A stretch of DNA of 28,210 bases from a virus. Below, piece after piece: positions 2,192 to 15,446 of the stretch. The position numbers and the translations under genes were made by a program. The first letter of the stretch is position 1, and each line of letters opens with the position of its first letter. Under the pieces are notes generated by a model. The model saw only the letters and a program-made list of their open reading frames with translations, made no database searches and was not told the DNA's origin. The stretch covers positions 1 through 28,210 of the IMG/VR virus record IMGVR_UViG_3300045952_000030. One strand, written 5' to 3'.

Positions 2192-2334
2192 GGCAATCTC
2201 TTTTTACTACACCACCAACAAATGGTGTAATCTGAATAGTCACATTTTCTTATCCAATGTAACCATTTGTTAAGACATTGGTCACACAAAAATATACTTT
2301 TCATGCGACCATATATCCAACATTCATGTATCAT
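2188..2334 (-). CDS. 48-residue CxxC micro-protein
   Basis: A short gene between the helicase and the next small gene. Its ATG overlaps the helicase TGA (ATGA) and its own TGA overlaps the next ATG in the same way, so it closes the operon without any gap. The product has CDQC at residues 17-20 and CWWC at 39-42, a typical two-knuckle zinc ribbon, and is rich in Trp and Lys. Function unknown. The double coupling and the zinc pairs are good evidence despite its size. Confidence 0.6.
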   Translation of the reverse strand: MIHECWIYGRMKSIFLCDQCLNKWLHWIRKCDYSDYTICWWCSKKRLP

Positions 2335-4445
2335 TTCTTAAGAGAAGCTGCTTTTGTTAACTTTCCCTTTTCCTTTTCAGCAACTCGCTTAACAATACTC
2401 ATTGCGAGTTCCTTTGCAAGTGAGAGACTAAAGACTTGCATCTCTCCCTTATTCATACTACTATGGAACCATGCTCGCTTTCTTTCTACAATATCTGCGA
2501 GTGTTTCATCAATAGTATCTGCCGCAGTTGCGAACGTTACATTCACTATGCTGTGCGTAGCTGCAATCCTTCTAAATCTTCCGGGCGCAGCTTGGTCTTC
2601 GTTTTGTGGATTCCATTGTCTTTCATGCATAATTGCATCACCGCATGTTTGAAGATTAATTCCTTCTCCAGCAGCACCAGTAGATGCAACCATGAATGCG
2701 CGCTTACTTGCGTTGAATTCTGTAGCCATTTGTTCACGTTGAAGTGAATTTAATCCCGCGTGAAGATTAAATACAGCAATATCCGTGAACTTCTCTTTCA
2801 TTTGACGATAGATGATATCTCCTACGTCAATGTGATGGACGAAGACAACCATCTTACGTTCGGTTTCTTCATAGAATTCTTCTAGCTTTTCCATTGTTGA
2901 TGGAATTTTAGCTAGTCCTGTAATGTGTCTCATCCTAGCCATCTGTGCTAGGATATTCATATCATTGAATGCTTGGTCTTCTGTGCCATCAATGACATGT
3001 TGATTATACCATTTGACGAAATCAGATTCCGATTCGTCATACATCATCTGTTCCCTATCATCTAAGTTCGTGAAGTGGAACTGACGATTGACTGACGGCA
3101 TCTGAATTGCTACATCGGCAACTTCTCGCCTAAGTGCAATATCTTTGATGTATTCTTGAAACTTCTTTGGGTGACGAATACCTGCATGGCGCGTATATTT
3201 GCCATCGTAGATAACATCTACCCATTGACGCACAAAGTTCGCATGAGAATGGAACTTATCAGGTGAAAGAATATTTAAAATTGGGAAGAATTCATCTCCC
3301 CTATTCTTCCACGGTGTTCCACTCAAAGCGATTACTTGCTTATCTTTGCAAAGTATTCGGAATCGTTGAGTGCGCGAACTATCAGGATTCTTAATCTGCT
3401 GAACTTCATCACCAACTACAGTCTTGATGAAGCTCAACTTCTCGATATCGAATCCAATTTCAATAGTCTTTTTCTTGAGTTTCTTAATCTTAGGCACCAT
3501 CAAATCATAAGAGATGATGTAGCACTTCAGATTAGGAATAACCCAATCGTCAGACTTTTCAATTACTTGTGGTAGATAAGTAGGACCAAGCCAGCGGAGA
3601 ATTTCTTTGAACCACTGGAACTTAATACCAGACTTAACTACGAACAAGATAGGAAATGCTTCGGGAGGTGCGAATAAAAGATACATGAGAACTTGGACAG
3701 TCTTACCAAGTCCCATTTCATCGAAAATAGCAGCACCTTTGTTTACTGCTAATCCTGCTTCGATGAATCGCGCACCTTCAACTTGGAATGGGAAACCACG
3801 ATATTCATTGCAGTTGAGGCAATGATTACCATTCCAATCGTGCTTACAATTCTTTACATGTTCTTTCCAAAAATTAGAAACTGCTGTCTCGAAAGGTGTT
3901 CCTTTCTTCAGCAGCTTAACTTCTACGTGATTACACTTGTAAAAAATCAGCTTTCGATTTGGTTTTAGCGGGTCTTTTTCTTCGATAATAATTTCTCTAT
4001 CGAAGATTGCAACTTTACCACAAGTAGGACACTTATCCTGTAGACGTGTCACTTGATACTTGTGCTTTGTAATTGTTTCAGTTTCTGTGATGACTTCCAC
4101 GTCAGCACCAGAACGAATCGCGTCAATAATATCATCACGTAATGCATGAGAACTACAAGTGCTAATATGCGTGCAACCTAATTCACGCGCTTTAGCAGCC
4201 CATATTTCATCATGACCGTGACCCTTAGTTAATGCATGAGCAACCTCATGATTAACAGTATTCTTTCCTTCTATCTCACCTACTTGGTCAAGATAATGTC
4301 CATTCAAGATAATGCACTTATCTCGATATGAACACAATCCATAGTAGTGTGGACTCGGATTATTATTGATGCGAATAGTCCAGTCAGTCAAATTATGCGC
4401 GTCTAATCTTTCACGCGCATATTTTACTGCTTCTATTCTATTCAT
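2331..4445 (-). CDS. SprT-like metalloprotease / SNF2 helicase fusion
   Basis: A 704-residue protein joining two activities. Residues 1-100 resemble a SprT-like zinc metalloprotease, with HEVAH at 66-70 as the HExxH site and GHGHDEIW at 75-82 holding the likely third ligand. CPTC (139-142) and C-rich NHCLNCNEY (around 208-214) form zinc ribbons. From about 218 an SNF2/SWI2-type helicase follows: Q-motif-like FPFQVEG, Walker A DEMGLGKT (242-249), motif II DEVQ (346-349) in place of the usual DEAH, motif III SGTP (375-378), then the C-terminal lobe with motif V STGAAGEGINLQ (588-599) and motif VI DQAAPGRFRR (617-626). SprT-like proteases degrade DNA-bound proteins; SNF2 motors translocate on duplex DNA. 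A joint role in clearing protein roadblocks or crosslinks is an inference. A near-consensus promoter lies just upstream and GAAAGGAAAT precedes the ATG. Confidence 0.85.
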   Translation of the reverse strand: MNRIEAVKYARERLDAHNLTDWTIRINNNPSPHYYGLCSYRDKCIILNGHYLDQVGEIEGKNTVNHEVAHALTKGHGHDEIWAAKARELGCTHISTCSSHALRDDIIDAIRSGADVEVITETETITKHKYQVTRLQDKCPTCGKVAIFDREIIIEEKDPLKPNRKLIFYKCNHVEVKLLKKGTPFETAVSNFWKEHVKNCKHDWNGNHCLNCNEYRGFPFQVEGARFIEAGLAVNKGAAIFDEMGLGKTVQVLMYLLFAPPEAFPILFVVKSGIKFQWFKEILRWLGPTYLPQVIEKSDDWVIPNLKCYIISYDLMVPKIKKLKKKTIEIGFDIEKLSFIKTVVGDEVQQIKNPDSSRTQRFRILCKDKQVIALSGTPWKNRGDEFFPILNILSPDKFHSHANFVRQWVDVIYDGKYTRHAGIRHPKKFQEYIKDIALRREVADVAIQMPSVNRQFHFTNLDDREQMMYDESESDFVKWYNQHVIDGTEDQAFNDMNILAQMARMRHITGLAKIPSTMEKLEEFYEETERKMVVFVHHIDVGDIIYRQMKEKFTDIAVFNLHAGLNSLQREQMATEFNASKRAFMVASTGAAGEGINLQTCGDAIMHERQWNPQNEDQAAPGRFRRIAATHSIVNVTFATAADTIDETLADIVERKRAWFHSSMNKGEMQVFSLSLAKELAMSIVKRVAEKEKGKLTKAASLKK

Positions 4446-4477: not shown

Positions 4478-4506
4478 ATTGTAGCACGGTTGAGGCACCG
4501 TGTCAA
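4478..4506 (-). promoter_or_regulatory. Sigma70-like promoter of the helicase operon
   Basis: On the minus strand TTGACA (4506-4501) and TACAAT (4483-4478) are separated by 17 bp. The -35 box is perfect and the -10 differs from TATAAT at one position. It lies about 35 bp before the helicase ATG and should drive the leftward operon down to the window edge. Confidence 0.8.
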
Positions 4507-4516
4507 CAACTATTTT

Positions 4517-4550
4517 TGTCCTATTTAGAGGACACTAGGTCAAGTGACCT
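4517..4550 (-). other. Pair of short hairpins between operons
   Basis: Two adjacent perfect stems, TGTCCT/AGGACA (4517-4522 with 4529-4534) and AGGTCA/TGACCT (4537-4542 with 4545-4550), lie right after the stop codon of the coiled-coil gene and before the helicase promoter. No U-run follows on the minus strand, so a classic intrinsic terminator is not shown. They may weaken read-through or protect the 3' end. Confidence 0.4.
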
Positions 4551-4551
4551 A

Positions 4552-5277
4552 CTATTTTGCTGTAGGAACTTTTAATCCTTTTAGAATTTCTACAGCAGCC
4601 TCAGGAGTAATATTTCTAGCTTGACATGTCATCTGGATTAGATGTTCTTGAATACCAGACCTTTGTGAAGCAGCTATTACTCCGGTCTTATCCCAATTTT
4701 TCTTGGGAGCTTCTTTCTTAATCTTTTGTGGAATGACTACTGGTTTGTAACCAGCGTCTGTAATCTTAATTTTCTCGCGTTCCTCTTGAGTTAATTGCTT
4801 TTGCAAGTTAACCCAATATGTTTGAATCGCGCGCTGTTCGTTCTCGTATTCAGTCTTTTGTGCGTCTAATCCGAACAAAAGCTCTGAAAGATGAGCGTGT
4901 CTTTCTGCTAGAACACGCCCAAGTGCGAAGTTTTTCTTTTCAATCGATGGTTCAGCATCGATTTCTTTCTTTAGTTCCGTGATAGCTGCTAACTTCGCAT
5001 TGAAGATATCAGCTTGAATACGAATCTGAGCATTCTCTTTCTTGATTCTGTCAAGAAGTTCTTGCTCTTTGTGCTTCTGTAATCTTTCCTCTTGCAGTTC
5101 CGGCGTTTGGTATGCCATAGCCGCAGCAACATCTTTTGCTACGCACTCATCGCATTCCCAAATTGAACCACATTTGGTTATCTTACAGTCCTTGTTATCG
5201 CATGATTCACAATCACCATGCGAAACAGTGCCGTTGATAACTGGACCTATTGGGTTAGAATGTGGTAAGCTATCCAT
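4552..5277 (-). CDS. Cys-rich N-terminus plus coiled-coil protein
   Basis: A 241-residue protein of unknown function. Residues 23-45 hold six cysteines (C23, C26, C31, C36, C42, C45), enough for one or two zinc sites. Residues about 58-170 are a long charged helical region with heptad-like spacing (RLQKHKEQELLDRIKKENAQ), probably a coiled coil. The last 70 residues are basic, then end in an apparent small helical domain (GIQEHLIQMTCQARNITPEA). The ATG follows AGGGATTGC. The layout suggests a dimeric DNA- or protein-binding factor, but no family is recognised. It overlaps the upstream micro-ORF by 31 nt. Confidence 0.75.
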   Translation of the reverse strand: MDSLPHSNPIGPVINGTVSHGDCESCDNKDCKITKCGSIWECDECVAKDVAAAMAYQTPELQEERLQKHKEQELLDRIKKENAQIRIQADIFNAKLAAITELKKEIDAEPSIEKKNFALGRVLAERHAHLSELLFGLDAQKTEYENEQRAIQTYWVNLQKQLTQEEREKIKITDAGYKPVVIPQKIKKEAPKKNWDKTGVIAASQRSGIQEHLIQMTCQARNITPEAAVEILKGLKVPTAK

Positions 5278-5336
5278 GCAATCCCTAGAAACGTGTAAAG
5301 GAACTTTTTCTTTTCAGACTCTGACATCTCCGTCAT
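5247..5336 (-). CDS. 29-residue membrane micro-protein
   Basis: The ATG overlaps the TGA of the upstream zinc protein (ATGA), and the frame ends in TAG inside the start of the next gene. The product has a charged head (MTEMSESEKKK) and one hydrophobic helix (FLYTFLGIAWIAYHIL). It parallels the 29-residue membrane peptide at 928-1017 in size and arrangement but not in sequence. The coupling supports translation; the size makes this uncertain. Confidence 0.45.
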   Translation of the reverse strand: MTEMSESEKKKFLYTFLGIAWIAYHILTQ

Positions 5337-5638
5337 GTGTTTAACTTTTCGAGGAGTTCTTTCAGTTTGTCATCTAGTGGTGCTTCGATTACAGGTTGTT
5401 CTCGAAGCACACCCGTTCTACAATGAAAGCATGTAGGCTTAACGCTACCCAATGCTCCCATATCTAACTGGAATATTTCACCACAACTCCAGCAGATACT
5501 GTTCTTACCTTCAATTGTAGCTTCCATATGCTTTGGTAAATAGTGATTGCAATCTGGAAGCGCGCAGGCCCAAATATCAGCGAATGAAAACTTCACCCGA
5601 TGATACTTGTGAACGTGACGTTTTGCTTTTGTGCTCAT
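5333..5638 (-). CDS. Multi-CxxC zinc protein, 101 aa
   Basis: The product begins MSTKAKRHVHKYHRVKFSF and has a CALPDC-type pair, a CWSC pair and a CFHC pair. It looks like a zinc-ribbon fold with one extra cysteine pair. The start at 5638 is preferred over the upstream GTG because GGAAG stands just before it and the longer version would read into the repeat-bearing leader. The C-terminus is a short amphipathic helix (DDKLKELLEKLN). Probably a nucleic-acid-binding or adaptor protein; family unknown. Confidence 0.65.
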   Translation of the reverse strand: MSTKAKRHVHKYHRVKFSFADIWACALPDCNHYLPKHMEATIEGKNSICWSCGEIFQLDMGALGSVKPTCFHCRTGVLREQPVIEAPLDDKLKELLEKLNT

Positions 5639-5667
5639 AATACTTCCGAATATTGCGCGTTTAGGAG

Positions 5668-5695
5668 TCTCAAGATATTTCAATCTCAAGATATT
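5668..5695. repeat. 12-bp direct repeat in a leader region
   Basis: Two exact copies of TCTCAAGATATT (5668-5679 and 5684-5695), 16 bp apart start to start, lie between the tRNA and the zinc-protein start. They could be an operator for a dimeric regulator or chance duplication. Confidence 0.4.
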
Positions 5696-5755
5696 AAGGA
5701 TTAACTCCACTCACTTATTCCCATATCCGGATATTCGTGAGCATCCTAAACTTGG

Positions 5756-5839
5756 TGCCACTAACAGGAATCGAACCTGTATGAGCTTTCGCTCCGAAGA
5801 TTTTAAGTCTTCTGCGTCTGCCATTTCCGCCATAGTGGC
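5756..5839 (-). tRNA. tRNA-Leu (anticodon UAA)
   Basis: An 84-nt class II tRNA on the minus strand. The acceptor arm GCCACTA pairs with TAGTGGC (5833-5839 with 5757-5763). The D-arm is GCG/CGC. The anticodon stem GAAGA/TCTTC encloses CTTAAAA, placing anticodon TAA. A long variable arm GAGC-GAAA-GCTC is typical of tRNA-Leu, and the T-arm ACAGG-TTCGATT-CCTGT is canonical. The discriminator A is followed by an encoded CCA (5755-5753). UUA codons are common in the late genes of this phage, so the tRNA probably supports their translation. It is transcribed with the minus-strand early genes. Confidence 0.95.
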
Positions 5840-5851
5840 TAATTTCCGAAT

Positions 5852-6046
5852 CTGATTGATTGGATGCTCTACTCAGTAACTAGTCACTAACCTAGGATTT
5901 AAACTAGTTAGGGGGCTAAGTAAAGCATCCAATAAATCAGACCGGATATAAATATCCGTCTAGGTCCGACATAGGACCGAACATCTACTCTCACTTTCAC
6001 CGTCTAGGTGCTCGCTCCGCACGATGCGAGAAGATTATTGAGTAGA
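5852..6046 (-). ncRNA. Structured non-coding stretch beside the tRNA
   Basis: No gene fits here; instead there is a chain of stems. A 25-bp imperfect stem (5852-5876 with 5916-5940) encloses an inner stem (5877-5884 with 5903-5910). Next come CGGATAT/ATATCCG (5943-5949 with 5952-5958) and GGTCC/GGACC (5963-5967 with 5974-5978). Last is TCTACTC/GAGTAGA (5984-5990 with 6040-6046) closing a junction of two hairpins, CACC/GGTG and CTCGC/GCGAG. Two of three mismatches in the long stem are G-U only in minus-strand RNA, so that strand is favoured. It may be a leader RNA 5' of the tRNA or an independent RNA. Confidence 0.5.
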
Positions 6047-6066
6047 ACCAACTCTTTCAAAGTCTT

Positions 6067-6315
6067 TCAATCTTTATGCCTATTAGTTTCAAACAATCGA
6101 AACTCATAAGCGTTCTTTTCGTCCCAATCTAAGTAAGTCCACATTGTAATCAATGTGATATCACTTGGAAGGTTTCGATTCAACTTTGTTTTCAAGATGC
6201 AATTCATTATCCATTGCATAATGAAAACTGGTAAGTAACACTCGAATTGAAATACTTGGTTCAATGATTTGTCCATGCACCAAGTTTCAATTGTCCAAGT
6301 GCGGCGTTTGAACAT
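6067..6315 (-). CDS. Hypothetical protein, 82 aa
   Basis: A small protein starting MFKRRTWTIETWCMDKSLNQ, with a hydrophobic centre (CYLPVFIMQWIMNCIL) that could be buried or one weak membrane helix, and an acidic/basic tail. Its start overlaps the stop of the preceding gene as TAATG, so translation is coupled. The N-terminal beta-like pattern and cysteines do not match any family I know. Confidence 0.6.
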   Translation of the reverse strand: MFKRRTWTIETWCMDKSLNQVFQFECYLPVFIMQWIMNCILKTKLNRNLPSDITLITMWTYLDWDEKNAYEFRLFETNRHKD

Positions 6316-6560
6316 TAGTAACCGTCTGGTCTTTCGACAGGTTCAAAGAATGGCTCTATCTTTACTTTCTCATATGTCGTGATTTGAAGTGCCGCATCAG
6401 GACGGTCTGAGAAATTTGCTACCACTATGGGATGTCCATAGAGAAGCACATCACTACCTTCTAAATGAAGGAAAGATGTGCTAGGTCCAATTTCAACGTG
6501 TGAAGCTACATGTTCCTCAACTTCACCCTTGTGGTGATTCTTGATTGTTACTAGGAACAT
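6315..6560 (-). CDS. Hypothetical beta-rich protein, 81 aa
   Basis: The sequence alternates hydrophobic and polar residues (MFLVTIKNHHKGEVEEHVAS, then VLLYGHPIVVANF), as in an all-beta small domain, and ends ERPDGY. The start lies inside the end of the 46-residue gene upstream (ATGTTCCTAG) and the stop is shared with the next start as TAATG. No metal or catalytic motif is visible. Function unknown. Confidence 0.65.
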   Translation of the reverse strand: MFLVTIKNHHKGEVEEHVASHVEIGPSTSFLHLEGSDVLLYGHPIVVANFSDRPDAALQITTYEKVKIEPFFEPVERPDGY

Positions 6561-6691
6561 GCTGCTTCTTTCTTGTCAAATTCTGCAAGTTCCGCGCAGA
6601 ATTTCTTGAAAGCTGCTTGCCACATTTGTTCAGATGGATAATCGGCACTGAAGTGATATGCCATTATCCAATCGTATCTTTTCTTGCTCAT
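6551..6691 (-). CDS. 46-residue hypothetical protein
   Basis: Begins MSKKRYDWIMAYHFSADYPS and continues as an amphipathic helix ending KFCAELAEFDKKEAACS. The start shares an A with the TAA of the upstream DnaJ-zinc-finger-like gene (TAATG) and its TAG falls inside the following gene's start. It is a compact soluble peptide with no recognised family. The tight overlaps at both ends are the main evidence. Confidence 0.6.
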   Translation of the reverse strand: MSKKRYDWIMAYHFSADYPSEQMWQAAFKKFCAELAEFDKKEAACS

Positions 6692-7080
6692 TAACAGCCC
6701 ATCTTCCTTTCCATCGCACAGAGTTGATTATATTCCATCTCATCTCTGATACGATTTTCTATTAGGTTCTTGATGTTCTCTGGCGTTTCGTCTATAGGTT
6801 CAGGCAAGACGCGCGAACCTTTACACTCATTGCAAGGAACATCATACATTCCAGAGAAATAATTTTCTCTGAAATCTGGGTCTTCATCGAAGTCCTCACG
6901 ACTTAAACCGTGAGAATCTATCGATGGATTGACGTGAGAACCTTTGCCATTGCAAACTTCACAAACTACGTATTTGCATTTGACTTCGATAGGCTCATTC
7001 TCACCGTCATCTATGGTTGCCGTCATTGTCTTTTCATCGAATGACGTAAACCATTGAAGGCGATATTCTCGTCTATCCAT
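6691..7080 (-). CDS. DnaJ-type cysteine-repeat zinc protein
   Basis: A 129-residue protein with two half-sites of the DnaJ central zinc-finger type: CEVCNGKG (40-47) and CNECKGS (83-89). They are separated by an acidic segment containing NPSIDSHG and DEDPDF that I recall from other phage hypothetical proteins with this layout. In DnaJ such repeats bind zinc and unfolded protein; here there is no J domain, so only zinc binding is predicted. The ATG follows AAGGGGTAA, a strong ribosome site. It is the first gene of a four-gene coupled run leading leftward. Confidence 0.75.
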   Translation of the reverse strand: MDRREYRLQWFTSFDEKTMTATIDDGENEPIEVKCKYVVCEVCNGKGSHVNPSIDSHGLSREDFDEDPDFRENYFSGMYDVPCNECKGSRVLPEPIDETPENIKNLIENRIRDEMEYNQLCAMERKMGC

Positions 7081-7101
7081 TTACCCCTTTCAGAATAGAG
7101 A

Positions 7102-7746
7102 TGGTAGACTTGGCTAACGCCCGTCAAACTTAACTGTTACGCCTACCAGATAACAGCCGCAAAGAGTTGAAGTATGTTTTGTTTTCGGGACATGAGCACT
7201 CATAACTTCTGTCACGTCTAGTTAGTTTCGATACGCGCGAACTAGAACATATACACGTATCTATCGGTTTCGTCATTTTACATGCTTACCGCAACCGAAA
7301 AACATTCACATAACCTTAATCATCCCCATTAAGGTGAGTAGCAGTTTCATTCGCGCTATCTGTTAGCCGCTTTTACGGTTTCTAAGTAACTGCTAGACTT
7401 TTTACGTCCAACCTTCTGCATTTCGCGGGCTTAGGACCGACAGGTAATACCTCTAAGGATATTACACTGGCTGCATTACTTTGGGCCTATCCTGATTATG
7501 ACCCGCGCAGGTTTTAACATAATCAGTTACGGATAAAATTTCTATCCGTCAATGTTATTGTCACTCTAGCCGTGGCCCTTACGTCTTATCAGACTATTTA
7601 GCTACGGCTTCTGATATTTATATCCCGCAGTGAAGCCGTAAGTTCAGCGGTGAAGATAGCTAGTCTTCAACTACTTAGCTTAATCCTTTCTGAGCTTTCG
7701 CTCGGATTATAGTTTCATAGTGTAGGATTCACCCTTGGGCTACCTA
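7102..7746 (-). ncRNA. Candidate large ornate non-coding RNA (~650 nt)
   Basis: No open frame of note, but perfect local stems succeed one another. Examples are TGGTAG/CTACCA (7102-7107 with 7143-7148), CTAGTT/AACTAG (7218-7223 with 7240-7245), TCGGTT/AACCGA (7264-7269 with 7293-7298), CCTTAAT/ATTAAGG (7314-7320 with 7328-7334) and AGCAGTT/AACTGCT (7340-7346 with 7388-7394). Further stems are GTAATA/TATTAC (7444-7449 with 7460-7465), CTGATTATG/CATAATCAG (7492-7500 with 7518-7526), ACGGATA/TATCCGT (7529-7535 with 7543-7549), TACGGCTTC/GAAGCCGTA (7603-7611 with 7632-7640) and TGAAGA/TCTTCA (7651-7656 with 7664-7669). TAATCC…GAGC-tetraloop-GCTC…GGATTA spans 7681-7709; its loop is GAAA (GNRA) only on the minus strand, which favours minus transcription. 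Size, phage setting and a nearby tRNA recall GOLLD and ROOL RNAs; identity is not shown. Confidence 0.55.
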
Positions 7747-7747
7747 C

Positions 7748-7824
7748 AAATTAGTGCATATCATATTTCTATATTCGGTCTGTTGAACCGCGCGAGCCTT
7801 AAACCGCGTGATATGCACTAATTT
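7748..7824 (-). repeat. 77-bp hairpin element with 16-bp perfect arms
   Basis: Exact arms AAATTAGTGCATATCA and its reverse complement (7748-7763 with 7809-7824) enclose 45 bp that include CGGT/ACCG and CGCG/CGCG stems. It stands at the 5' end of the ornate RNA if that is read from the minus strand. The same total length and a matching core order (GTT, CGCGCG, GCCTTA) occur in the hairpin at 24458-24534. Confidence 0.65.
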
Positions 7825-7846
7825 CTAGATATCCAAAGATGCTAGG

Positions 7847-8087
7847 AATAGTGTCCTCAAAAGTGGACAGACTGAGTGAGAGTGTCCCTGTCTAGTCTAT
7901 CACATTCGAGCCTAGCAAGTCAACTGACAAGTTTTGTCACCCTGTAGTGAGTATTTATATATGTAAAAAAAAAATAAAAAAACAAAGACAAGACACCTAG
8001 CAGGGCAGATGGGTGCGATTAGGGCCAACAGTGACAGGCTAGAGACAGACATACACTCTCAGTCTGTCATCTAGTCTGGACACTATT
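7847..8087 (-). other. Inverted-repeat-bounded non-coding stretch with A/T run
   Basis: AATAGTGTCC (7847-7856) pairs with 8078-8087, and GACAGACTGAG (7866-7876) with 8058-8068, enclosing about 180 bp without a gene. Inside are a 6-bp palindrome TGACAA/TTGTCA (7925-7930 with 7934-7939) and a long A-run with one interruption (T-run on the minus strand) at about 7965-7981. The right arm begins exactly at the stop codon of the next gene. It may be a 3' end or spacer between the small gene and the ornate RNA. Confidence 0.45.
7894..7923 (-). promoter_or_regulatory. Possible promoter for the ornate RNA
   Basis: On the minus strand TTGACT (7923-7918) and TAGACT (7899-7894) are 18 bp apart. The boxes match consensus at five and four of six positions. 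It points leftward into the 77-bp hairpin and ornate RNA. It is weaker than the promoters at 4.5 and 12.1 kb. Confidence 0.35.
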
Positions 8088-8297
8088 TTAGTTAGGCCAA
8101 GTAGCAAACCATGTAGTCACTTGCTCATACTCTTTCTGAGACAAGGAACTATTCTGGTAGTTGAGAATCTTTCGAGCAGCGAGTTTCAATCGAAAGACTG
8201 AAACGTTACAATCTGCTGTGCAACAAGTTTCTGCATGATGAACAGCAGCATTGTAGAGATTCTCTATCAGCATGAATGCTTCTGAGCAATTCTCCAC
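8088..8297 (-). CDS. Hypothetical protein, 69 aa
   Basis: A GTG start with AGGA about ten bases upstream begins a 69-residue helical protein (MENCSEAFMLIENLYNAAVH) containing a CCTADC cysteine cluster and ending in TTWFATWPN. An alternative ATG eight codons in lacks a ribosome site. Base composition and codon use agree with neighbours. No family is recognised; the Cys cluster and His residues could bind a metal. It is isolated between two non-coding structured stretches, unlike the coupled genes to the left. Confidence 0.55.
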   Translation of the reverse strand: MENCSEAFMLIENLYNAAVHHAETCCTADCNVSVFRLKLAARKILNYQNSSLSQKEYEQVTTWFATWPN

Positions 8298-8319
8298 TAT
8301 TCAGTTGTCCTAGGGATAT

Positions 8320-8503
8320 TCGTATCGGAATTAATACGACGCATCTACTCTTTACTATCTGTTATGAATGAATCAGAGAGTAGATGCCGCCTACCAGAAT
8401 TTATCTGATAGTCAATCTTTCGATTGTCCTATGCCTAACGTCTATTTATACTCGCATAGTCGAGTTTGGCGAATTAGGATGGTTAGTTACTTCCCATCCT
8501 AAT
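8320..8503 (-). other. Chain of intergenic hairpins, incl. a three-hairpin junction
   Basis: The 208-bp gap holds TCGTAT/ATACGA (8320-8325 with 8334-8339) and an 11-bp perfect stem GCATCTACTCT/AGAGTAGATGC (8341-8351 with 8377-8387). Next is a junction closed by CGCC/GGCG (8388-8391 with 8468-8471) containing CAATC-GAAA-GATTG (GNRA loop in minus sense, 8413-8426) and ACTCG/CGAGT. Last is a 10-bp perfect stem (8473-8482 with 8494-8503) three bases past the stop codon of the next gene. No U-run follows on the minus strand, so these are not obvious terminators. Confidence 0.5.
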
Positions 8504-8505
8504 AT

Positions 8506-8913
8506 TTACTGCATTCCGAGTGCAGCCTTCGCAGTGGCCGTAGCCGTAGCTTCGTCCATCTGGTTAGCCATAAGAATCTTGACCATCTGCTTGAGACGGA
8601 AGTCAGGATTCTCAAGAGTAGGCTTCTGAATACCTGCCTGCTCTAATGCAGCGTTCTGTGCAGCAGCACGAGCCTTTGCATTTCGCTTCTGATTTACGAA
8701 ACTACGCAAATCAGCTTCGTCGGGACGCTCATCAGCAGGAATAGTATCACCCTTCTGAAGTTCGTATACGACGTAGTTGAACAGAATTACAGGAACAACA
8801 GGCTCACCGTTGAAAGTCTCAATCTTTCCAGACTTTTCTGTGCGCTTGCCGACTTCCTTCTGCTCAACAGCAGGAGTTTCAGTAGCCACATCGTTTGCAA
8901 CTGCGTCACTCAT
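8506..8913 (-). CDS. Hypothetical alanine-rich helical protein, 135 aa
   Basis: The start at 8913 (MSDAVANDVATETPAVEQKE) is chosen because GGTGAG precedes it and the longer frame reads through structured leader DNA. A low-complexity acidic N-terminus is followed by a folded stretch (VVPVILFNYVVYELQKGDTI) and then an Ala/Arg-rich helical half (RNAKARAAAQNAALEQAG) ending in ATATATAKAALGMQ. No motif points to a function. GC content is higher than in adjacent genes, which may mean strong expression or a different origin. Confidence 0.7.
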   Translation of the reverse strand: MSDAVANDVATETPAVEQKEVGKRTEKSGKIETFNGEPVVPVILFNYVVYELQKGDTIPADERPDEADLRSFVNQKRNAKARAAAQNAALEQAGIQKPTLENPDFRLKQMVKILMANQMDEATATATAKAALGMQ

Positions 8914-9167
8914 AATCTCACCATTCTTTCTGCTAAAACTATTTCCGAGGTTTACGGTGCCGACCGACAAGACCATTGTCTCATAGTCGGTTCGCAGAGT
9001 CAACAGAAATTTAGGCCGTCTCACAAGATACTGGCCGGAGTGTGCAAGTCCGTTAAGACCTGACGGTAATTGTCAATCGTCCGACTCGGAAATAAAAATA
9101 TTCTCCGAGTGTAAAACAATTGAGCCAGCGTTCTTGTGATTCACCGATAAGTCTGATTTGCAGCATT

Positions 9168-9332
9168 TCAGAATCTCACTTTCTGTAGTCTACGACTACC
9201 GATGTTTTCAAGAAGTGTGTAGAACCAAACGTGTGTTGCTGTTAGGTAAAAATAACTCTTATCAGTCATTCTTACCCAAGTATCTCCACGCTTCTCGAAG
9301 ATAGACCACCTAGCTTGTTTTCTTTTCTTCAT
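9168..9332 (-). CDS. 54-residue basic protein
   Basis: A short frame starting MKKRKQARWSIFEKRGDTWV and ending RRLQKVRF. It is basic and rich in Trp, Phe and Tyr, with an alternating pattern suggesting a small beta sheet. The ribosome site is poor (TTCCTAACA before ATG), so the call rests on composition and on the fact that it fills an otherwise empty 435-bp gap. No family recognised; a nucleic-acid-binding peptide is possible from the charge. Confidence 0.45.
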   Translation of the reverse strand: MKKRKQARWSIFEKRGDTWVRMTDKSYFYLTATHVWFYTLLENIGSRRLQKVRF

Positions 9333-9416
9333 TGTTAGGAATCTAGCCAGTATCCAGTGAGACAGCCAAATCTCTGTGGACTTTTACGATGCATCTACAT
9401 AGGGATAGAATAGATT

Positions 9417-9700
9417 ATATCTCTAATGAATCACTCAGTCTGTTAAAGTTACTTTTCTTTACCGACCATACTTCAGACGATGAGCACTGATGATAGTATC
9501 GCTGGCTTTGTCACGGGGCATTCCAGCAATCATCAGCACTCGAATTGCTTTCCTGATTTGTCGAATCTGATTACTGCGAAGTGAAAGCAAATAATCAGCA
9601 TGAGACATAATCGAAGACTCGAAACTCTGCTCAGCCACGGCGAAAACTCTTTCTTTCATTTCCGTTTCTCCAGACTGACTGAGTGATTGATTAGAGATAT
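9417..9700. repeat. Inverted-repeat module A around a small gene
   Basis: The left arm 9417-9442 (ATATCTCTAATGAATCACTC…) is matched by the inverted right arm 9671-9700. There is one substitution and a four-base insertion (duplicated GACT) in the right arm. The arms lie just outside the coding region of the 66-residue gene, so its mRNA 5' and 3' ends could pair. Module B starts at the next base. Confidence 0.75.
9459..9659 (-). CDS. 66-residue small protein in module A
   Basis: Begins MKERVFAVAEQSFESSIMSH after GGAGAAACGGAA, a good ribosome site. The rest is helical and basic (LLSLRSNQIRQIRKAIRVLM), ending in AHRLKYGR. The region from residue 25 to 60 could be a helix-turn-helix (IRVLMIAGMPRDKASDTIIS), so DNA binding is possible but unproven. 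The gene is enclosed on both sides by the arms of a long inverted repeat, and its neighbours have the same arrangement. Confidence 0.65.
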   Translation of the reverse strand: MKERVFAVAEQSFESSIMSHADYLLSLRSNQIRQIRKAIRVLMIAGMPRDKASDTIISAHRLKYGR

Positions 9701-9970
9701 GAGTTTATATCCCTAATGAATCGCCTAGCAGTGTTTAACTAACTACTCACCCCAAATGATGAGTTTCATTAGTTCTCAGTGACTTCGATACCCTTGTTCT
9801 TCATTTCCTCGACAGCCCAAGCCTTGAGCGTATCCTTGATATCCTTGCACTCCAGCAATTCCTTGACAGTGCAAGCGCCGGTAGACGTGAGATACTTCAT
9901 CCAAGTCATAGCAGTTACCCTCGTTTCTAGTTTGGTTAACTGCTAGGCAATTGATTAGAGATATAAACTC
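9701..9970. repeat. Inverted-repeat module B around a small gene
   Basis: Arms 9701-9731 and 9940-9970 are 31 bp each and match at 28 positions when inverted. Two of the three differences are G-U pairs in minus-strand RNA. The third, a G opposite G in TAATGAATC, recurs at the same place in module A, so the two arm pairs share ancestry. The module encloses the 46-residue gene. Confidence 0.8.
9769..9909 (-). CDS. 46-residue protein in module B
   Basis: Starts MTWMKYLTSTGACTVKELLE after CGAGGGTAA, a strong ribosome site, and ends NKGIEVTEN. The product is acidic and helical, with two cysteines (residues 13 and 21). No family is recognised. It lies in the centre of a 270-bp inverted-repeat module with about 38 bp on its 3' side and 30 bp on its 5' side before the arms. 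Good ribosome site, sensible composition and the module position support it. Confidence 0.6.
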   Translation of the reverse strand: MTWMKYLTSTGACTVKELLECKDIKDTLKAWAVEEMKNKGIEVTEN

Positions 9971-9977
9971 TACTCGC

Positions 9978-10242
9978 CTCTATCCGTAAGTCTAATGGAA
10001 TGCTCAAGTATTTCCGGCACTGGATTAACAGCTAGAGTGGAATTGTTGGCTAGCTCAGCACTATTGATGTTCGGGATATACAGCTTGATTGCTTGGGTTT
10101 AGCGTCCCATTTAGCACGCTTCAAGACTGAGGTTTAACCCGTGGTGTCTAGGCAACTGCCAAATGCTAAAGACTGTTTCGACAGTGAGTAGAATGCTACC
10201 GTATCCGTAATCTTGAGCACTCTATTAGACTCACGAATAGAG
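9978..10242 (-). ncRNA. Inverted-repeat module C without a gene
   Basis: Arms 9978-10008 and 10212-10242 (31 bp, 27 matches) enclose about 200 bp with no start-to-stop frame of useful size on either strand. Of four arm differences three are G-U in minus-strand RNA. Inside are GCTAG/CTAGC around 10032-10055, ACTGT-TTCG-ACAGT (10172-10185) and GGCA/TGCC. The right arm can also fold locally (CTCTATT/AATAGAG, 10220-10226 with 10236-10242), an alternative to the long stem. It is probably an RNA element and may switch between two folds. It fills most of the 389-bp gap 9910-10298. Confidence 0.6.
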
Positions 10243-10263
10243 ACGAGTAAATCTCTATCCCTT

Positions 10264-10619
10264 GGGTTTCCATGCACTCATCTAGACGCCAGAAAGAATT
10301 ACTTACCTAGTGCAGCTTTCAATTCCTGCTGTGCGATAAGCTCGCGTTGTGACGGTGGTCTGTCAAACTTACGAGCTTTGATGTGCTCAGTTTTCAGCCG
10401 GAAGCGAATACCTTTCAATTCGCCGTTTGGATACTGGCGCGTTCCACCGTGTAATTCTTCACTCTGCACACGGCGATAATTTCCGATGCCAGCTTTGAAT
10501 CGTGCGATTTCTCGGAGTAGGGATTGTGTCATCCATTCCTCACGAGTCATACGTTTCCGATTGCATTTCTTCATTTCAGACTCCGTTTCGTGGCGTCTAA
10601 AAGAATGCATGAAAACCCC
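10264..10619. repeat. Inverted-repeat module D around a small gene
   Basis: The left arm 10264-10294 (GGGTTTCCATGCACTC…TAGACGCCAG) is matched inverted by 10586-10619. Three differences are G-U in minus-strand RNA, one is a transversion and one base is inserted. It encloses the 91-residue gene including its ribosome site. Confidence 0.75.
10299..10574 (-). CDS. 91-residue basic protein in module D
   Basis: The start at 10574 (MKKCNRKRMTREEWMTQSLL) follows CGGAGTCTGAA. The longer frame from 10610 would begin inside the repeat arm. The protein is very basic, with RMTREEWMTQSLLREIARFK as a helix, a middle rich in Arg/Gly (ELHGGTRQYPNGELKGIRFR), and RPPSQRELIAQQELKAALGK at the end. It probably binds nucleic acid, given the charge. 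No family recognised. It is the rightmost of the repeat-enclosed genes. Confidence 0.65.
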   Translation of the reverse strand: MKKCNRKRMTREEWMTQSLLREIARFKAGIGNYRRVQSEELHGGTRQYPNGELKGIRFRLKTEHIKARKFDRPPSQRELIAQQELKAALGK

Positions 10620-10956
10620 GCTTACTTCCGCCCTTTGATGATTTCACTTGCTTGCTGGCTGGCATCTACCATCGGAACTTTCGTGGTGCGTTCCTACTCT
10701 ACTGGGCCACCAGTTTTTGCATAGGTGTTGTGGGCTTTTCAGCTATTCAGTTCTCTGGTATGTGCGCGGTTTCCCATCACACCACGTCCAAGGTGGTGCT
10801 TAGCACTCCCTAGCAGCTACACTTCCACTACAAGTGTAGGTTCTCACACGTCTAGTCGATAGGCACTCCCGCGATAGCGCGACGCTTACCGTGCGCCGGG
10901 CGTAAATTACACTAGTAGTAGTGCATATGCCGCGCCACTATGAAAGCTTACAGGAA
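10620..10956. other. Non-coding structured spacer
   Basis: Only very short frames are present. Stems include CACCAC/GTGGTG around 10780-10800, CTACACTT/AAGTGTAG (8 bp, 10817-10824 with 10832-10839), a CGCGATAGCGCG palindrome near 10870 and CACTA/TAGTG near 10910. Base composition is more GC-rich than the iteron-like stretch that follows. No promoter could be fixed with confidence. Confidence 0.4.
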
Positions 10957-11230
10957 TGCACGTCACTGCACGCTATGACAATTGCACATCACACTTTAGC
11001 GTGACATGGATTGTCATAGGTGACAATAATTGTTGTCATATGAAATAGTGGGTAAGAGTATGTCGGATGCCCACATTTGCACATGATTTCGTATGAAAAT
11101 GTGAGAAATAAAAATCATGCCAAGAAAAAGTGTGAAGATATGTAAACTTTTGCACATAATTGCGCGTCATTATACATCACACGGGTGCACACCAATGCAC
11201 GTAAAGTTACATAATTTCCCGAAAGTGCAC
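10957..11230. repeat. Iteron-like cluster of TGCAC words
   Basis: TGCAC occurs eight times on the plus strand in 274 bp (10957, 10967, 10983, 11078, 11151, 11186, 11196, 11226), often as WTGCACRT. Interspersed are TGACAAT dyads: ATTGTCA/TGACAAT (10010+1000, i.e. 11010-11016 with 11021-11027) and TGACAA/TTGTCA (11021-11026 with 11033-11038). A perfect TATAAT lies on the minus strand at 11174-11169, with a poor TTGGTG 15 bp upstream. The stretch is AT-rich, gene-free, and lies between small minus genes. A replication origin or a multi-site operator are both possible. Confidence 0.5.
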
Positions 11231-11259
11231 GGCATTGAACACACAGGCCGGTTACTATT

Positions 11260-11496
11260 TTATTTAAGCCATCCCTCAGATTTAAGAGTTAATTGTAAAT
11301 TTTTAGCTTCTTTCAGAAATTCAATGAATTCATCTAAATTTTCTTCGGCAATTTGAATTACTTGGCTCGATTGGCCAATATAAATAATTCTAGGTTGTTC
11401 CTCATATTGACGCACTGATAAATCAATTTCAGCTACGAATCCGATTTGGCGGCTGAGAAATCTAGAGCATTTAAGTATCACCATTGTTTTATTCAT
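11260..11496 (-). CDS. Hypothetical protein, 78 aa
   Basis: Starts MNKTMVILKCSRFLSRQIGF. The ATG overlaps the TAA stop of the upstream gene (ATGAATAA) and GGGG lies just before it; an ATG two codons earlier is also possible. The sequence looks like a small alpha-beta domain, with beta strands (GFVAEIDLSVRQYEEQPRII) followed by a helix (EENLDEFIEFLKEAKNLQ). This pattern, with IYIGQSSQVIQIAEENLDE, is similar to the small host-transcription-related PC4-like fold, but that is a weak impression. Function unknown. Confidence 0.65.
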   Translation of the reverse strand: MNKTMVILKCSRFLSRQIGFVAEIDLSVRQYEEQPRIIYIGQSSQVIQIAEENLDEFIEFLKEAKNLQLTLKSEGWLK

Positions 11497-11662
11497 CCCC
11501 ATAGAGTCTCATACAGAAAACATCTTTCTTGGCAAATACTTTTATATCACCACATTTGAATTTAATAACAAAGTGATTTAGAGTCTCATCTACACCTTCT
11601 ACTCCTAGAAATAGTAATATCTCACGTTTTTGCTTTGATGGCGGCCAAAGTAGAACGCGCAT
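11489..11662 (-). CDS. Hypothetical protein, 57 aa
   Basis: A short frame starting MRVLLWPPSKQKREILLFLG and ending CMRLYGDE. It contains two likely beta hairpins (HFVIKFKCGDIKVFAKKDVF). It is coupled to its neighbours: its ATG comes six bases after the upstream TGA and its TAA overlaps the downstream ATG. Two cysteines are present without a clear metal motif. Not recognised; position in a tight four-gene run is the best evidence. Confidence 0.6.
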   Translation of the reverse strand: MRVLLWPPSKQKREILLFLGVEGVDETLNHFVIKFKCGDIKVFAKKDVFCMRLYGDE

Positions 11663-11668
11663 AACATC

Positions 11669-11845
11669 TCATCGCTTTGGAGCCTCATTTACAGTTAATC
11701 GCTCACTGATACACTCTGGACAAATAATCAAAGCCCGCACTATAATTCCTTTGTCTGGAGTATCTGTGGGAATTGGATAGAAACCAGTAGATACAGATTT
11801 CCTGCAATATGCGCAATGGAGATAAGCAATCTCAGTTGTGTTCAT
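11669..11845 (-). CDS. 58-residue zinc-ribbon protein
   Basis: Starts MNTTEIAYLHCAYCRKSVST and has CAYC (11-14) and CPEC (42-45), a clean two-knuckle zinc ribbon with 27 residues between the pairs. The C-terminus is a short basic helix (ISERLTVNEAPKR). The start lies inside the end of the upstream gene (14-nt overlap). It is one of many small CxxC proteins in this phage. Function unknown. Confidence 0.65.
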   Translation of the reverse strand: MNTTEIAYLHCAYCRKSVSTGFYPIPTDTPDKGIIVRALIICPECISERLTVNEAPKR

Positions 11846-12083
11846 CATCTGGGTTTCCTTTTGGATTGAGTATTCGTTCTATGTTCCAGTAGGCCATTCT
11901 ATGTTTAGAGTTACAGAAGACCTGCCAAGGACGAGTAGGTTTAAAGATAGTCCCACAAAACTTACAGATGACTGTAAATTCTGCTTTTGATTCTGGTGAT
12001 TTGTAGAGACTTTCACACTTTTTAACAAGGTTGTCGGCAAACGCATTTAGAGGCGATTTGCGGCGGGGCGGGTTTGAAGCCAT
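11832..12083 (-). CDS. FCS-type zinc-finger protein, 83 aa
   Basis: The first gene behind the leftward promoter at 12.13 kb. The core CKFCGTIFKPTRPWQVFC followed by NSKHRMAYW matches the common phage and bacterial motif CxxCGxxFxPxxxxQxFCSxxCR, with a His replacing the last Cys (SKHR), so a single treble-clef-like zinc site is likely. The N-terminus is basic (NPPRRKS). Such proteins are thought to bind nucleic acid. Start by first ATG; the leader to the promoter is about 40 bp. Confidence 0.7.
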   Translation of the reverse strand: MASNPPRRKSPLNAFADNLVKKCESLYKSPESKAEFTVICKFCGTIFKPTRPWQVFCNSKHRMAYWNIERILNPKGNPDDEHN

Positions 12084-12131
12084 TCTAGGTGCTCCAGAGA
12101 ACGATATGCGTTCATTAGGGCGCGCTAGTGG

Positions 12132-12160
12132 ATTCTAGCACTTGTCAACTCATCTGTCAA
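12132..12160 (-). promoter_or_regulatory. Leftward sigma70-like promoter
   Basis: Minus-strand TTGACA (12160-12155), 17-bp spacer, TAGAAT (12137-12132). The -35 is perfect and the -10 has one deviation. It should drive the leftward gene run starting at 12083. It interleaves with the rightward promoter. Confidence 0.8.
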
Positions 12161-12170
12161 GTGGTAAGAT
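12142..12170 (+). promoter_or_regulatory. Rightward sigma70-like promoter of the late genes
   Basis: TTGTCA (12142-12147), 17-bp spacer, TAAGAT (12165-12170), reading into the small terminase gene whose ATG has AGGAAA upstream. Its elements interleave with the leftward promoter, so one polymerase would block the other. A repeated TGTCAA (12143-12148 and 12155-12160) lies across both and may be an operator. Confidence 0.7.
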
Positions 12171-12206
12171 GCCCGCGCGAGGCGGATAATTTCATAGGAA
12201 AATAAA

Positions 12207-12845
12207 ATGCCATTAGGAATAGTATCGGCGGAAGATTATGAACGGGAACGGAATACAAACAATAAGGAAGACATTTCTTCAAAAGAAGTCGTATCAGAAG
12301 ATACGTCTGAAGTTGGAGTTGATACAGATATTACAGGCGAATCAGTTGGAATTGTTGGCGAGATTGAAAGAATTGCTCGTGTCGGTAGGGGACCAGGAAA
12401 TACTAATGTTCCTCAATCGATTAGAAGGATTATCGGTGAGAGTTCAGTTGAGGAAGGTTCGGGAGCGGCTCAAGCAATTGGTAGATTCTTAGGTATCTCA
12501 CAATCTTCTGTTTCTGCATATTGTAACGGAGCAACATCCACAGCTACTTACAATAGGCCCAATGAAGATTTAGTTTCTCACTTGAATAAGACCCGCCGTA
12601 AAATTAGTAGACGCGCACAAGGAAAACTCTTTAAGGCTTTGGGTAAGATTGATGACCAAAGTTTAGCAGGATTAACTGCGCTCGAAGCATCTTCAGTTGC
12701 AAAGAACATGTCAACTATCGTAAAGGATATGGAACCCGATACAAGAAATCAGGGAAATACATTTAATGGACCTGTAATCACGTTCTATGCTCCTCAGCTA
12801 GTTCGTGAGGAAACTTTTGAGGTGGTTCACGCAAACGAGACATGA
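12207..12845 (+). CDS. Putative terminase small subunit
   Basis: A 212-residue protein at the expected place upstream of the large terminase. Residues about 86-106 (GAAQAIGRFLGISQSSVSAY) form a clear helix-turn-helix of the kind that lets small terminases recognise the packaging site. An acidic disordered N-terminus (residues 8-45) precedes it, and a helical middle (TRRKISRRAQGKLFKALGKI) could be the oligomerisation region. The ATG follows AGGAAAATAAA, directly behind the rightward promoter. An alternative is a transcription regulator; position and size favour the terminase. Confidence 0.65.
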   Translation: MPLGIVSAEDYERERNTNNKEDISSKEVVSEDTSEVGVDTDITGESVGIVGEIERIARVGRGPGNTNVPQSIRRIIGESSVEEGSGAAQAIGRFLGISQSSVSAYCNGATSTATYNRPNEDLVSHLNKTRRKISRRAQGKLFKALGKIDDQSLAGLTALEASSVAKNMSTIVKDMEPDTRNQGNTFNGPVITFYAPQLVREETFEVVHANET

Positions 12846-13699: not shown

Positions 13700-13813
13700 A
13701 TGAAAGCTATCCAAGACCCAGAAATGAATTACATCTGGGTTTGGGTAGGAGCGACGGTAGTGCTCCTAATAGCTGTAATAGCGTTCGCAATTAGTTTCGC
13801 TCATGGCATTTAA
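13700..13813 (+). CDS. 37-residue membrane micro-protein
   Basis: Starts MKAIQDPEMNYIWVWVGATV and continues as one strong transmembrane helix (VWVGATVVLLIAVIAFAISF) with a short tail. It ends in TAA inside the start of the large terminase (11-nt overlap). It could be a small holin-like or membrane accessory protein. Hydrophobic profile and position are the evidence. Confidence 0.55.
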   Translation: MKAIQDPEMNYIWVWVGATVVLLIAVIAFAISFAHGI

Positions 13814-15446
13814 TGTTAAAGAATGGCGACCTACTAAAAAGCAGGAGCTATTCTTATCACTTCCTTGGTCAATTAAAGAAGCATTTTTTGGTGGCGGTGT
13901 AGGTGGTGGTAAATCGGATTTACTTCTTGTTTACCCGATTATCCATTCTCTGCATAAAAATCCGAGATTCAAACAGCTTCTAACGAGACGGACACATCAG
14001 GAATTAAAAAAGGAGATTGTTCCACGTTCTTATGAAATCTATCCGAAATTCGGTGCGACGTTCAATCTCACCGATATGGTTTGGACATTTCCTAGAGAGG
14101 ACCAATTCGGAAGTGGATTTCGTAATTCAGGTGCGCGAATCTTCTTAGGACATATCGAACATGAAAAGGATGTAAAGAATTATGATTCGATGGAGATTAA
14201 TGTTTATTCTCCAGACGAATTAACTCATTTGACAGAGTATATGTATCTTTACATTGCTCTGACGAGAGTAAGAACAAGTGACCCGGCATTACCTGCGATT
14301 ATACGCGGTGCTGGTATGCCAGGTGGTGAAGGACATACATTTGTAAAGAAAAGATTTGTAGACCCATATCCACAGGGTGGAAAAAGAATTATTGGGCGCG
14401 CTGGTGTCCAAAGATTTTATGTTCACGCTACGCTCCTTGACAATCCTCATATAGACCCAGATTACAAAAATAGCATTATGGCTCTGCCAGAAGCAGAGCG
14501 TAAAGCTAAACTTGGTGACTGGAATGCTTTTCAGGGTCAAGTCTTTGATGAGTTCAGGGATAATAGATATCCTGATGAACCAGAAAATGCTTTGCATGTA
14601 ATTCCTGAATTTCAATTACCTGAGTGGTGGCCTCGAATAGTTGTAGGTGATTGGGGATATGCTGCAAAGACGTGGGTAGGATTTGGTGCCATAGCTCCTA
14701 ATAAGCGATTATATTGTTACCGTGAACTTGTATATAAGAAAGTTAAGATTGAAGAATGGGCACCAGAAGTTAAATGGTTTGCAGATAGAGAGAATGTTAA
14801 ATTAGTTAAATTCTGCAAATCAATTGGACAGGAAAGAGGACAGGAACATACTATTCAAGAACAAATTGAATCAGCATTAGGTAGACCAGTTGAATTGTCT
14901 AACAATGTGGCTGGTAGTAGAATCGCTGGAAAGATGTTGATTCATGAATTCTTACGATGGAAACCAAAACCACGTATGCCGAAAGAAGAACTTCCGGTAT
15001 ACAGTGAGGAGCAAGCGTTACGTATATATCGCGCGAAGGGACAGAAAGCATACGAGCAATATCTTGCTTTGTATTCTTACGCTGAACCCGAAGAAGAAGT
15101 TTTACCAAGACTTATTATCTTTGGACCAAGTGAAGATAATCCTCATGCAGGATGTCCAGAGTTAATAGAAGCAATCAAGACTTGCACTTACGATAAGAAC
15201 CGAACAGAAGATATCGCAGAATTTGAAGGTGATGACCCGATAGATGGACTGCGATATTTAGTAGATGCTGCTGATAGTTATGTGAGAGATGCTCAATACG
15301 AATTCAATAAGATTCAAAAGCAAGAAGCTCTTGCACAATTATTACAAAATACTCAGGACTGGACTGGTTATTATCGTCAGATGAAGAAATTAGAATCCCA
15401 AGAAAGAGTAGTAGGGATTAAAAGGTATTCAAAAAGGAGACACTAA
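13803..15446 (+). CDS. terL: Terminase large subunit
   Basis: The 547-residue ATPase/nuclease motor that packages phage DNA into the prohead. The N-terminal ATPase shows Walker A GGGVGGGKS (30-38), the adenine-side motif (RRTHQELKKE) and Walker B/catalytic DE (138-139 in VYSPDEL), followed by a coupling-type region. The C-terminal RNase H-like nuclease begins at VVGDWGYA with Asp283, and further acidic residues lie downstream. Length is typical. It forms a complex with the small terminase and docks on the portal encoded 3 kb downstream. The start ATG lies within the end of the membrane micro-protein. The stop overlaps the next start (TAATG). Confidence 0.95.
   Translation: MAFNVKEWRPTKKQELFLSLPWSIKEAFFGGGVGGGKSDLLLVYPIIHSLHKNPRFKQLLTRRTHQELKKEIVPRSYEIYPKFGATFNLTDMVWTFPREDQFGSGFRNSGARIFLGHIEHEKDVKNYDSMEINVYSPDELTHLTEYMYLYIALTRVRTSDPALPAIIRGAGMPGGEGHTFVKKRFVDPYPQGGKRIIGRAGVQRFYVHATLLDNPHIDPDYKNSIMALPEAERKAKLGDWNAFQGQVFDEFRDNRYPDEPENALHVIPEFQLPEWWPRIVVGDWGYAAKTWVGFGAIAPNKRLYCYRELVYKKVKIEEWAPEVKWFADRENVKLVKFCKSIGQERGQEHTIQEQIESALGRPVELSNNVAGSRIAGKMLIHEFLRWKPKPRMPKEELPVYSEEQALRIYRAKGQKAYEQYLALYSYAEPEEEVLPRLIIFGPSEDNPHAGCPELIEAIKTCTYDKNRTEDIAEFEGDDPIDGLRYLVDAADSYVRDAQYEFNKIQKQEALAQLLQNTQDWTGYYRQMKKLESQERVVGIKRYSKRRH

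Follow-up and report, generated by a model that had tools for sequence, protein, structure and literature searches.

Small genes of an uncultured virus are framed by complementary arms that fold in silico into long helices on the gene-sense RNA. The window, as we call the whole stretch of DNA analyzed here, is the 28,210-base record of this virus, with leftward early genes on the minus strand. At about 7.0 to 11.2 kb the leftward transcript is RNA-rich, its open reading frames (ORFs) being small and few, and five modules, A to E, were found there (Table 1). These modules are very likely functional RNA helices in the gene-sense transcript, and our analysis leans toward reading them as leader-trailer (processing-stalk) helices, built gene by gene in the manner of an rRNA precursor. 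The parts, boxA and leader-trailer helices, are known; what we did not find in the literature is such helices around single phage protein genes, in tandem and recurrent in unrelated phages. The searched literature, openly licensed papers only, held no prior description of wrapped phage genes.

Wrapped modules of the window

A first-pass annotation of this DNA had described four inverted-repeat modules, A to D, and all four were recovered by repeat finders and by a stem scan compared with shuffled sequence. It had correctly placed the end of A at 9700 and the beginning of B at 9701, had noticed the G-G mismatch shared by A and B, and had seen no gene in C, where we likewise found no minus-strand ORF. 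The extent of C and the gaps given around it (7 and 21 bp) required revision: C comprises 40 positions, shares 2 nt with the end of B, and lies 12 nt from D. One small gene each had been assigned to A, B, and D; those of A and B stand as described, while gene D probably starts at ATG 10574, which is favored because ATG 10610 falls within the arm. The four modules were also not the full set, as module E (9011-9370) and two downstream long hairpins (7847-8087 and 7734-7838) had been missed.

Table 1. Positions of early genes, module arms, and wrapped genes in the window.
Feature	Position	Strand	Description
Helicase	2331-4445	-	Leftward early gene
Pistol-ribozyme-like RNA	8419-8465	-	Directly after gF; 31 bits, gathering score 34.5 (RF02679)
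gF	8506-9024	-	Conserved early gene after module E; probably starts at an ATG further downstream
Module E 3′ arm	9011-9039	-	
Gene E	9168-9332	-	Candidate ORF within module E, 54 aa; weak start context
Module E 5′ arm	9342-9370	-	29 positions
Module A 3′ arm	9417-9443	-	27 bp with 9674-9700
Gene A	9459-9659	-	66 aa
Module A 5′ arm	9674-9700	-	Abuts module B at 9701
Module B 3′ arm	9701-9732	-	32 bp with 9939-9970
Gene B	9769-9909	-	46 aa, no family; SD-like GAGGG upstream
Module B 5′ arm	9939-9970	-	
Module C 3′ arm	9969-10008	-	40 positions with 10212-10251
Module C 5′ arm	10212-10251	-	
Module D 3′ arm	10264-10295	-	32 positions with 10587-10618
Gene D	10299-10574	-	91 aa from ATG 10574; SD-like CGGAG; protein CGGAGTCTGAAATG
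Module D 5′ arm	10587-10618	-	
Terminase large subunit	13803-15446		Rightward gene

Repeat finders gave 93% complementarity for the arms of A and 91% for those of B, and placed D at 10264-10291/10591-10618 (86% complementary). When minus-strand G-U pairs are counted, the helix of C consists of 34 Watson-Crick pairs, five G-U, and one A-C, and its loop (10009-10211) is structured. Genes A, B, and D each have a Shine-Dalgarno (SD)-like stretch just on the loop side of the 5′ arm, with start codons 14, 29, and 12 nt past the arm, respectively. The small wrapped proteins matched no family in Pfam or PHROGs, and the gene D protein had no relative in IMG/VR and none beyond the same phage. For the gF family, the AlphaFold model was moderate (pLDDT 79, pTM 0.54) and had no significant BFVD match.

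The stem scan was run in the minus sense with G-U pairs allowed, against a null of 400 dinucleotide shuffles of window 4500-12200. Real stems in this region scored 32.5, 27.5, 23, 22, 21.5, 21.5, 20, and 18.5, with modules A, B, C, and D at 22-32.5, while none of the 400 shuffles exceeded 17.5 and their 95th percentile was 15.0. Some stems are expected from AT-rich intergenic DNA, but eight of at least 18.5 against this shuffle maximum refute chance or a low-complexity artefact, an explanation to which we give virtually no credence. Long hairpins at 7866-8068, 7734-7838, and 5851-5941 were added by the scan. Poly-U hairpins were considered as gene wrappers (around ORF 7912-8052) and rejected; this ORF is a poly-T tract, so these hairpins were excluded from the module count.

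Unconstrained folding of minus strand 9400-10260 (z = -9.4) gave A, B, and C one helix each. In an unconstrained fold of 1,651 nt, mean arm pair probability was 0.84-0.97 for B, C, and D, 0.85 for A, and 0.79 for E, with some opening around the starts of A, B, D, and E (mean unpaired 0.42-0.59). An outer helix closing A-B-C as a four-way junction appeared in the shorter of these two folds, was absent from the 1,651-nt fold, and was dropped.

Mispairs were then read in gene sense. Among all stems of the window region, detected strand-blind, G-U mispairs numbered 18 and A-C mispairs 3; the corresponding counts in modules A-E were 11 and 1. Across 29 wrapped modules from this and other phages, whose helices are nearly perfect over 19-38 positions, there were 49 G-U versus 17 A-C (p = 1e-4). 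The modules of L028, L080, L149, and L184 are reversed, A-C mismatches exceeding G-U, and the G-U excess could be mimicked by C-to-T mutation of the non-template strand. The outer arms of A and B are alike, and their common mismatch, at pair 12 in both (G-G on the plus strand), is C·C in the transcript. Between their inner arms, six pairs have changed on both sides in a compensatory way, two have changed on one side, and one pair is broken. Because of the G-U bias, the compensatory changes between A and B, and the strong folds, the helices appear to act as RNA, not DNA.

Wrapped genes and boxA in other phages

Helices of 19-38 bp around single genes were found in related soil phages and in unrelated phages, with arms related within one genome and unrelated between genomes. 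Relatives were gathered via the helicase (73 IMG/VR loci). Among cultured phages, the helicase found distant relatives only, and neither a DNA search with window 8500-12500 nor tblastn with the wrapped proteins gave a match. The closest relative, L014, has the same order of wrapped module, gF, pistol ribozyme, poly-U hairpin, and second hairpin, the last ending in AGCCCAAGGGTGA. The arms of its wrapped module (4558-4589/4933-4964) are mutually complementary and unrelated in sequence to those of module E; gene E and its L014 counterpart gave no BLAST alignment, so the two E modules are compared by position alone. In L007, two adjacent modules have near-identical arms and different genes (the module-2 protein has no relatives beyond the same phage), and L028, L046, and L067 have one wrapped module each.

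The wrapped gene of L028 and L046 is homologous to gF of the window, and a gF homologue is the wrapped gene in L028, L080, L082, L083, and L085. When 10 loci with close homologues were compared (L079-L088), complementary arms framed the gene in six: L079, L080, L082, L083, and L085/L087, the last two with the same arms. These wrapped homologues are 113-128 aa long (L079, L080, L082, L083, L085), their arms differ, mostly completely, and their flank helices score 19-20.5 compared to at most 14.5 for shuffled flanks. Arms were absent in the other four loci (L081, L084, L086, L088); a plain sigma-70-like promoter takes their place in L084, L086, and L088, and a short hairpin follows the gene in L081, L086, and L088. 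Distant homologues of gene A (43-44%) in L045 and L036 are also unwrapped and lie directly after a gF-like gene. Since homologous genes have different arms or none, the helix is a swappable setting and not a fixed part of the gene. The first-pass annotation had taken genes kept without arms as grounds for rejecting its proposal; this is the situation in some relatives (the four armless loci, L045, and L036), which makes the arms optional, not unreal.

Two contigs not obtained by similarity to the window extend the layout: L171, in which three modules abut at gaps of 2 and 4 nt, and L229, in which each of two modules has a boxA-like string of its own at its head. The wrapped proteins of L098 and L101 (147 and 144 aa) were considered as gF homologues; their identity is merely 13-23%, and homology is not claimed.

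In rRNA operons, boxA (consensus GYTCTTTAANA; PMC5725501) loads RNA polymerase with NusB/S10 and further factors, and the rRNA flanks pair as a leader-trailer helix, which must be longer than 17 bp and which RNase III cleaves (PMC10250234). A string like GGCTCTTTGACAACTGAATA precedes or forms part of the 5′ arm in the wrapped loci, and boxA was found at or before the 5′ arm in L007, L028, L080, L082, L085, L098, L101, and L229. No complete boxA was found at the window's own modules, with GANAACTGAATA half-matches on the minus strand only at 8306 and at 10752, the latter 134 nt before D. Within family 1, the correlation between boxA and arms (p = 0.048) is partly circular because the motif was derived from those same sites; a boxA pattern scan of IMG/VR, independent of any protein, provided the independent test. 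A long-range helix within 100 nt after GYTCTTTGANAAYTGAATA was present at 19 of the 76 distinct sites read, compared to 2/76 in the opposite direction (p = 8e-5) and 4/380 at random places (p = 1e-12). About 10 of these 19 boxA-led helices frame one ORF of 67-204 aa.

The string was also sought in bacteria. A too-long boxA pattern gave only two matches on genome contigs, and the search was repeated in 59 genomes of one phylum, nine of which contain GYTCTTTGANAAYTGAATA (reversed control, 0/59). In the eight bacterial loci read, the string lies shortly before 16S rRNA in L243 and L245 and shortly before 23S rRNA in L241 and L244. This context, together with the consensus, identifies the string as rrn boxA with its usual downstream bases. 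In another of the eight, L240, the string (1501-1519) precedes a CRISPR-like repeat-spacer array. In L242, a putatively bacterial sequence, boxA itself is the 5′ arm of a 28-bp helix (1499-1526/1958-1985) around some 430 nt whose ORF is broken or very small. In L168, boxA and its exact complement form a perfect 21-bp inverted repeat (438-458/867-887) framing 408 nt.

Several further elements lie near the modules. In L014, a pistol ribozyme occupies the same place after gF (5469-5537, plus strand) and scores 45.6 bits, above the gathering threshold; the pistol loop pairing covaries between the window and L014 (CTATGC/GCATAG versus TCTAAGC/GCTTAGA). A twister-P1-like match (RF03160) at window 7408-7482 on the minus strand (41 bits, E 1.6e-6, gathering score 67.2) sits in a strongly folding 500-nt noncoding stretch. 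Both matches adjoin the modules on the same strand; they differ from them in being separate elements, and in the window both fall below the gathering score. Large ornate RNAs of the GOLLD, ROOL, and OLE types gave no Rfam match at gathering or E ≤ 5.

A giant hairpin upstream of the helicase (window 7847-8087, minus strand) is conserved in many relatives (L016 7639-8018, L030 8108-8514, L036 8345-8753, L065, L068, and others). In many of them its arms are imperfect repeats of about 11 nt, and arm sequences are wholly different between phages. The apex combines AT-rich sequence with a poly-T run, which is 16-20 long in many relatives and shorter in the window, and the hairpin is possibly a replication origin or an RNA element. 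Downstream of it, a GCGAA...TAATATTATC...TTCGC hairpin (L017 ~8836-8875, L065 ~8515, L068 ~8766, L016 ~8080) is like the nonanucleotide origin loop of rolling-circle viruses. The hairpin at window 7734-7838 (minus strand), without an Rfam match, has a counterpart in the same place in L014 (6079-6233), and both are followed by the common string TAGCCCAAGGGTGA. tRNA genes occur among the early genes of the window (5753-5839) and L014 (7218-7289, 7512-7627, 8670-8753), each with a long hairpin nearby (window 5851-5941, L014 7297-7391). A 26-base imperfect palindrome, GTCATAGGTGACAATAATTGTTGTCA, is found on opposite strands in the window (~11035-11065) and L014 (~4020-4045); it is operator-like and belongs to a noncoding stretch with repeated TGTGCA words.

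Interpretation of the helices

The modules resemble rrn leader-trailer units in their complementary flanks, in a 20-40 bp helix around one RNA, in their tandem arrangement, and, in many phages, in an identical boxA string at or before the 5′ arm. Their helices, of 27-40 positions in A-E and 19-38 in the 29 modules, are longer than the 17 bp that the rRNA helices must exceed. They differ in wrapping a short protein-coding message rather than rRNA (an Rfam scan found no rRNA in the window, and the wrapped RNAs are protein genes), in lacking a full boxA in the window, and in that RNase III cleavage is putative here. Early mRNAs of T7-like phages are processed by RNase III at local hairpins between genes. 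They too are phage early polycistronic RNAs with double-stranded elements, whereas in the modules each gene has one arm on either side. Lambdoid nut sites, which combine boxA, boxB, and N antitermination, are a precedent for phage use of boxA and Nus factors; here, in contrast, no boxB hairpin or N gene was identified, and boxA accompanies individual modules, together with a long-range helix.

Under the processing-stalk reading, each small gene in the leftward early transcript is framed by complementary arms, with the start signals of A, B, and D just on the loop side of the 5′ arm. Once transcribed, the 3′ arm would pair with the 5′ arm and close the message into its own loop domain, and the helices may insulate neighboring genes. 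Each helix would be an RNase III substrate of the right size, from which single-gene mRNAs could be released; we infer this enzyme from helix length only. Paired 5′ and 3′ ends would shield the message from exonucleases and RNase E. Where boxA is present, host Nus factors may guard the transcript against Rho and ease the pairing of the distant arms, and in the window lineage the pistol and twister-like ribozymes may add further cuts. Counting against this reading are the geneless module C, the weak start signal of module E, the lack of a full boxA in the window, the relatives without arms, the few modules in which A-C mismatches prevail, and the loss of the A-B-C closing helix from the longer fold.

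The first-pass annotation had proposed either an RNA-stability or processing system or a cassette-like architecture. The former is well supported as an RNA-level feature by the G-U bias, the compensatory changes between A and B, the unrelated yet complementary arms, and the boxA link elsewhere. The cassette idea is partly supported, in that neighboring modules of one genome share arms and hold different genes. As a mobile element it is not supported: no arms common to genomes, target duplications, or recombinase signature were seen, and homologues occur without arms. A DNA-level explanation, in which the arms are terminal inverted repeats of small non-autonomous one-gene mobile cassettes or bound invertible segments, would fit the arm sequence common to neighboring modules with different genes (window A/B, L007, L171, L229). 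We consider it highly improbable in view of the sense-strand G-U bias, the imperfect arms with compensatory changes, and the constant gene orientation and gene-arm distance. No terminal repeats common to different genomes were found, arms being unrelated even around homologous genes, and the modules abut without target-site duplication, with no repeat at the A/B junction and C touching B.

Two alternatives at the RNA level accept the helices and assign them another role. The helices might merely stabilize or circularize the message, or join stop and start so that ribosomes are recycled, and short mRNAs would then persist even where translation-coupled protection is absent. The ends of each message are indeed paired, the fold leaves the starts of A, B, D, and E partly unpaired, and RNase III cleavage is inferential for this phage. 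We nevertheless regard a role without processing as unlikely, since 19-38 near-perfect positions surpass the needs of closure and match the RNase III range, and the boxA association suggests rRNA-like handling. In hok-type mRNA, the 5′ and 3′ ends of a small mRNA pair, and fold-back regulation of this kind, with the 3′ arm locking the 5′ end and translation silent until trimming, would suit small genes whose mRNA ends are paired. It is highly improbable here: unlike in hok-type mRNA, the ribosome site of the modules lies in the loop, with start signals just past the arm and outside the helix, and wrapped genes are of many kinds, up to about 200 aa in other phages, with no toxin-family match among the proteins. 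For antisense RNA, the search covered Rfam.

Beyond the window, we tentatively suggest, as a possibility short of an even chance, that phages have a general architecture in which single genes form units like rRNA precursors, with boxA and a leader-trailer helix. Unrelated phages would have used it repeatedly and independently, co-opting host rrn antitermination, folding, and RNase III, while the window lineage would have kept the tandem helices and put other means, self-cleaving ribozymes among them, in the place of boxA. If this is true, phages give ordinary protein genes the packaging of bacterial ribosomal RNA, and host factors dedicated to rRNA (NusB/S10, SuhB, RNase III) would directly shape phage gene expression. 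BoxA with complementary flanks would then be a sequence handle for such units in any phage, and boxA would have a testable role beyond rRNA, nut sites, and CRISPR arrays. The modules would also represent a natural design for insulated single-gene mRNAs.
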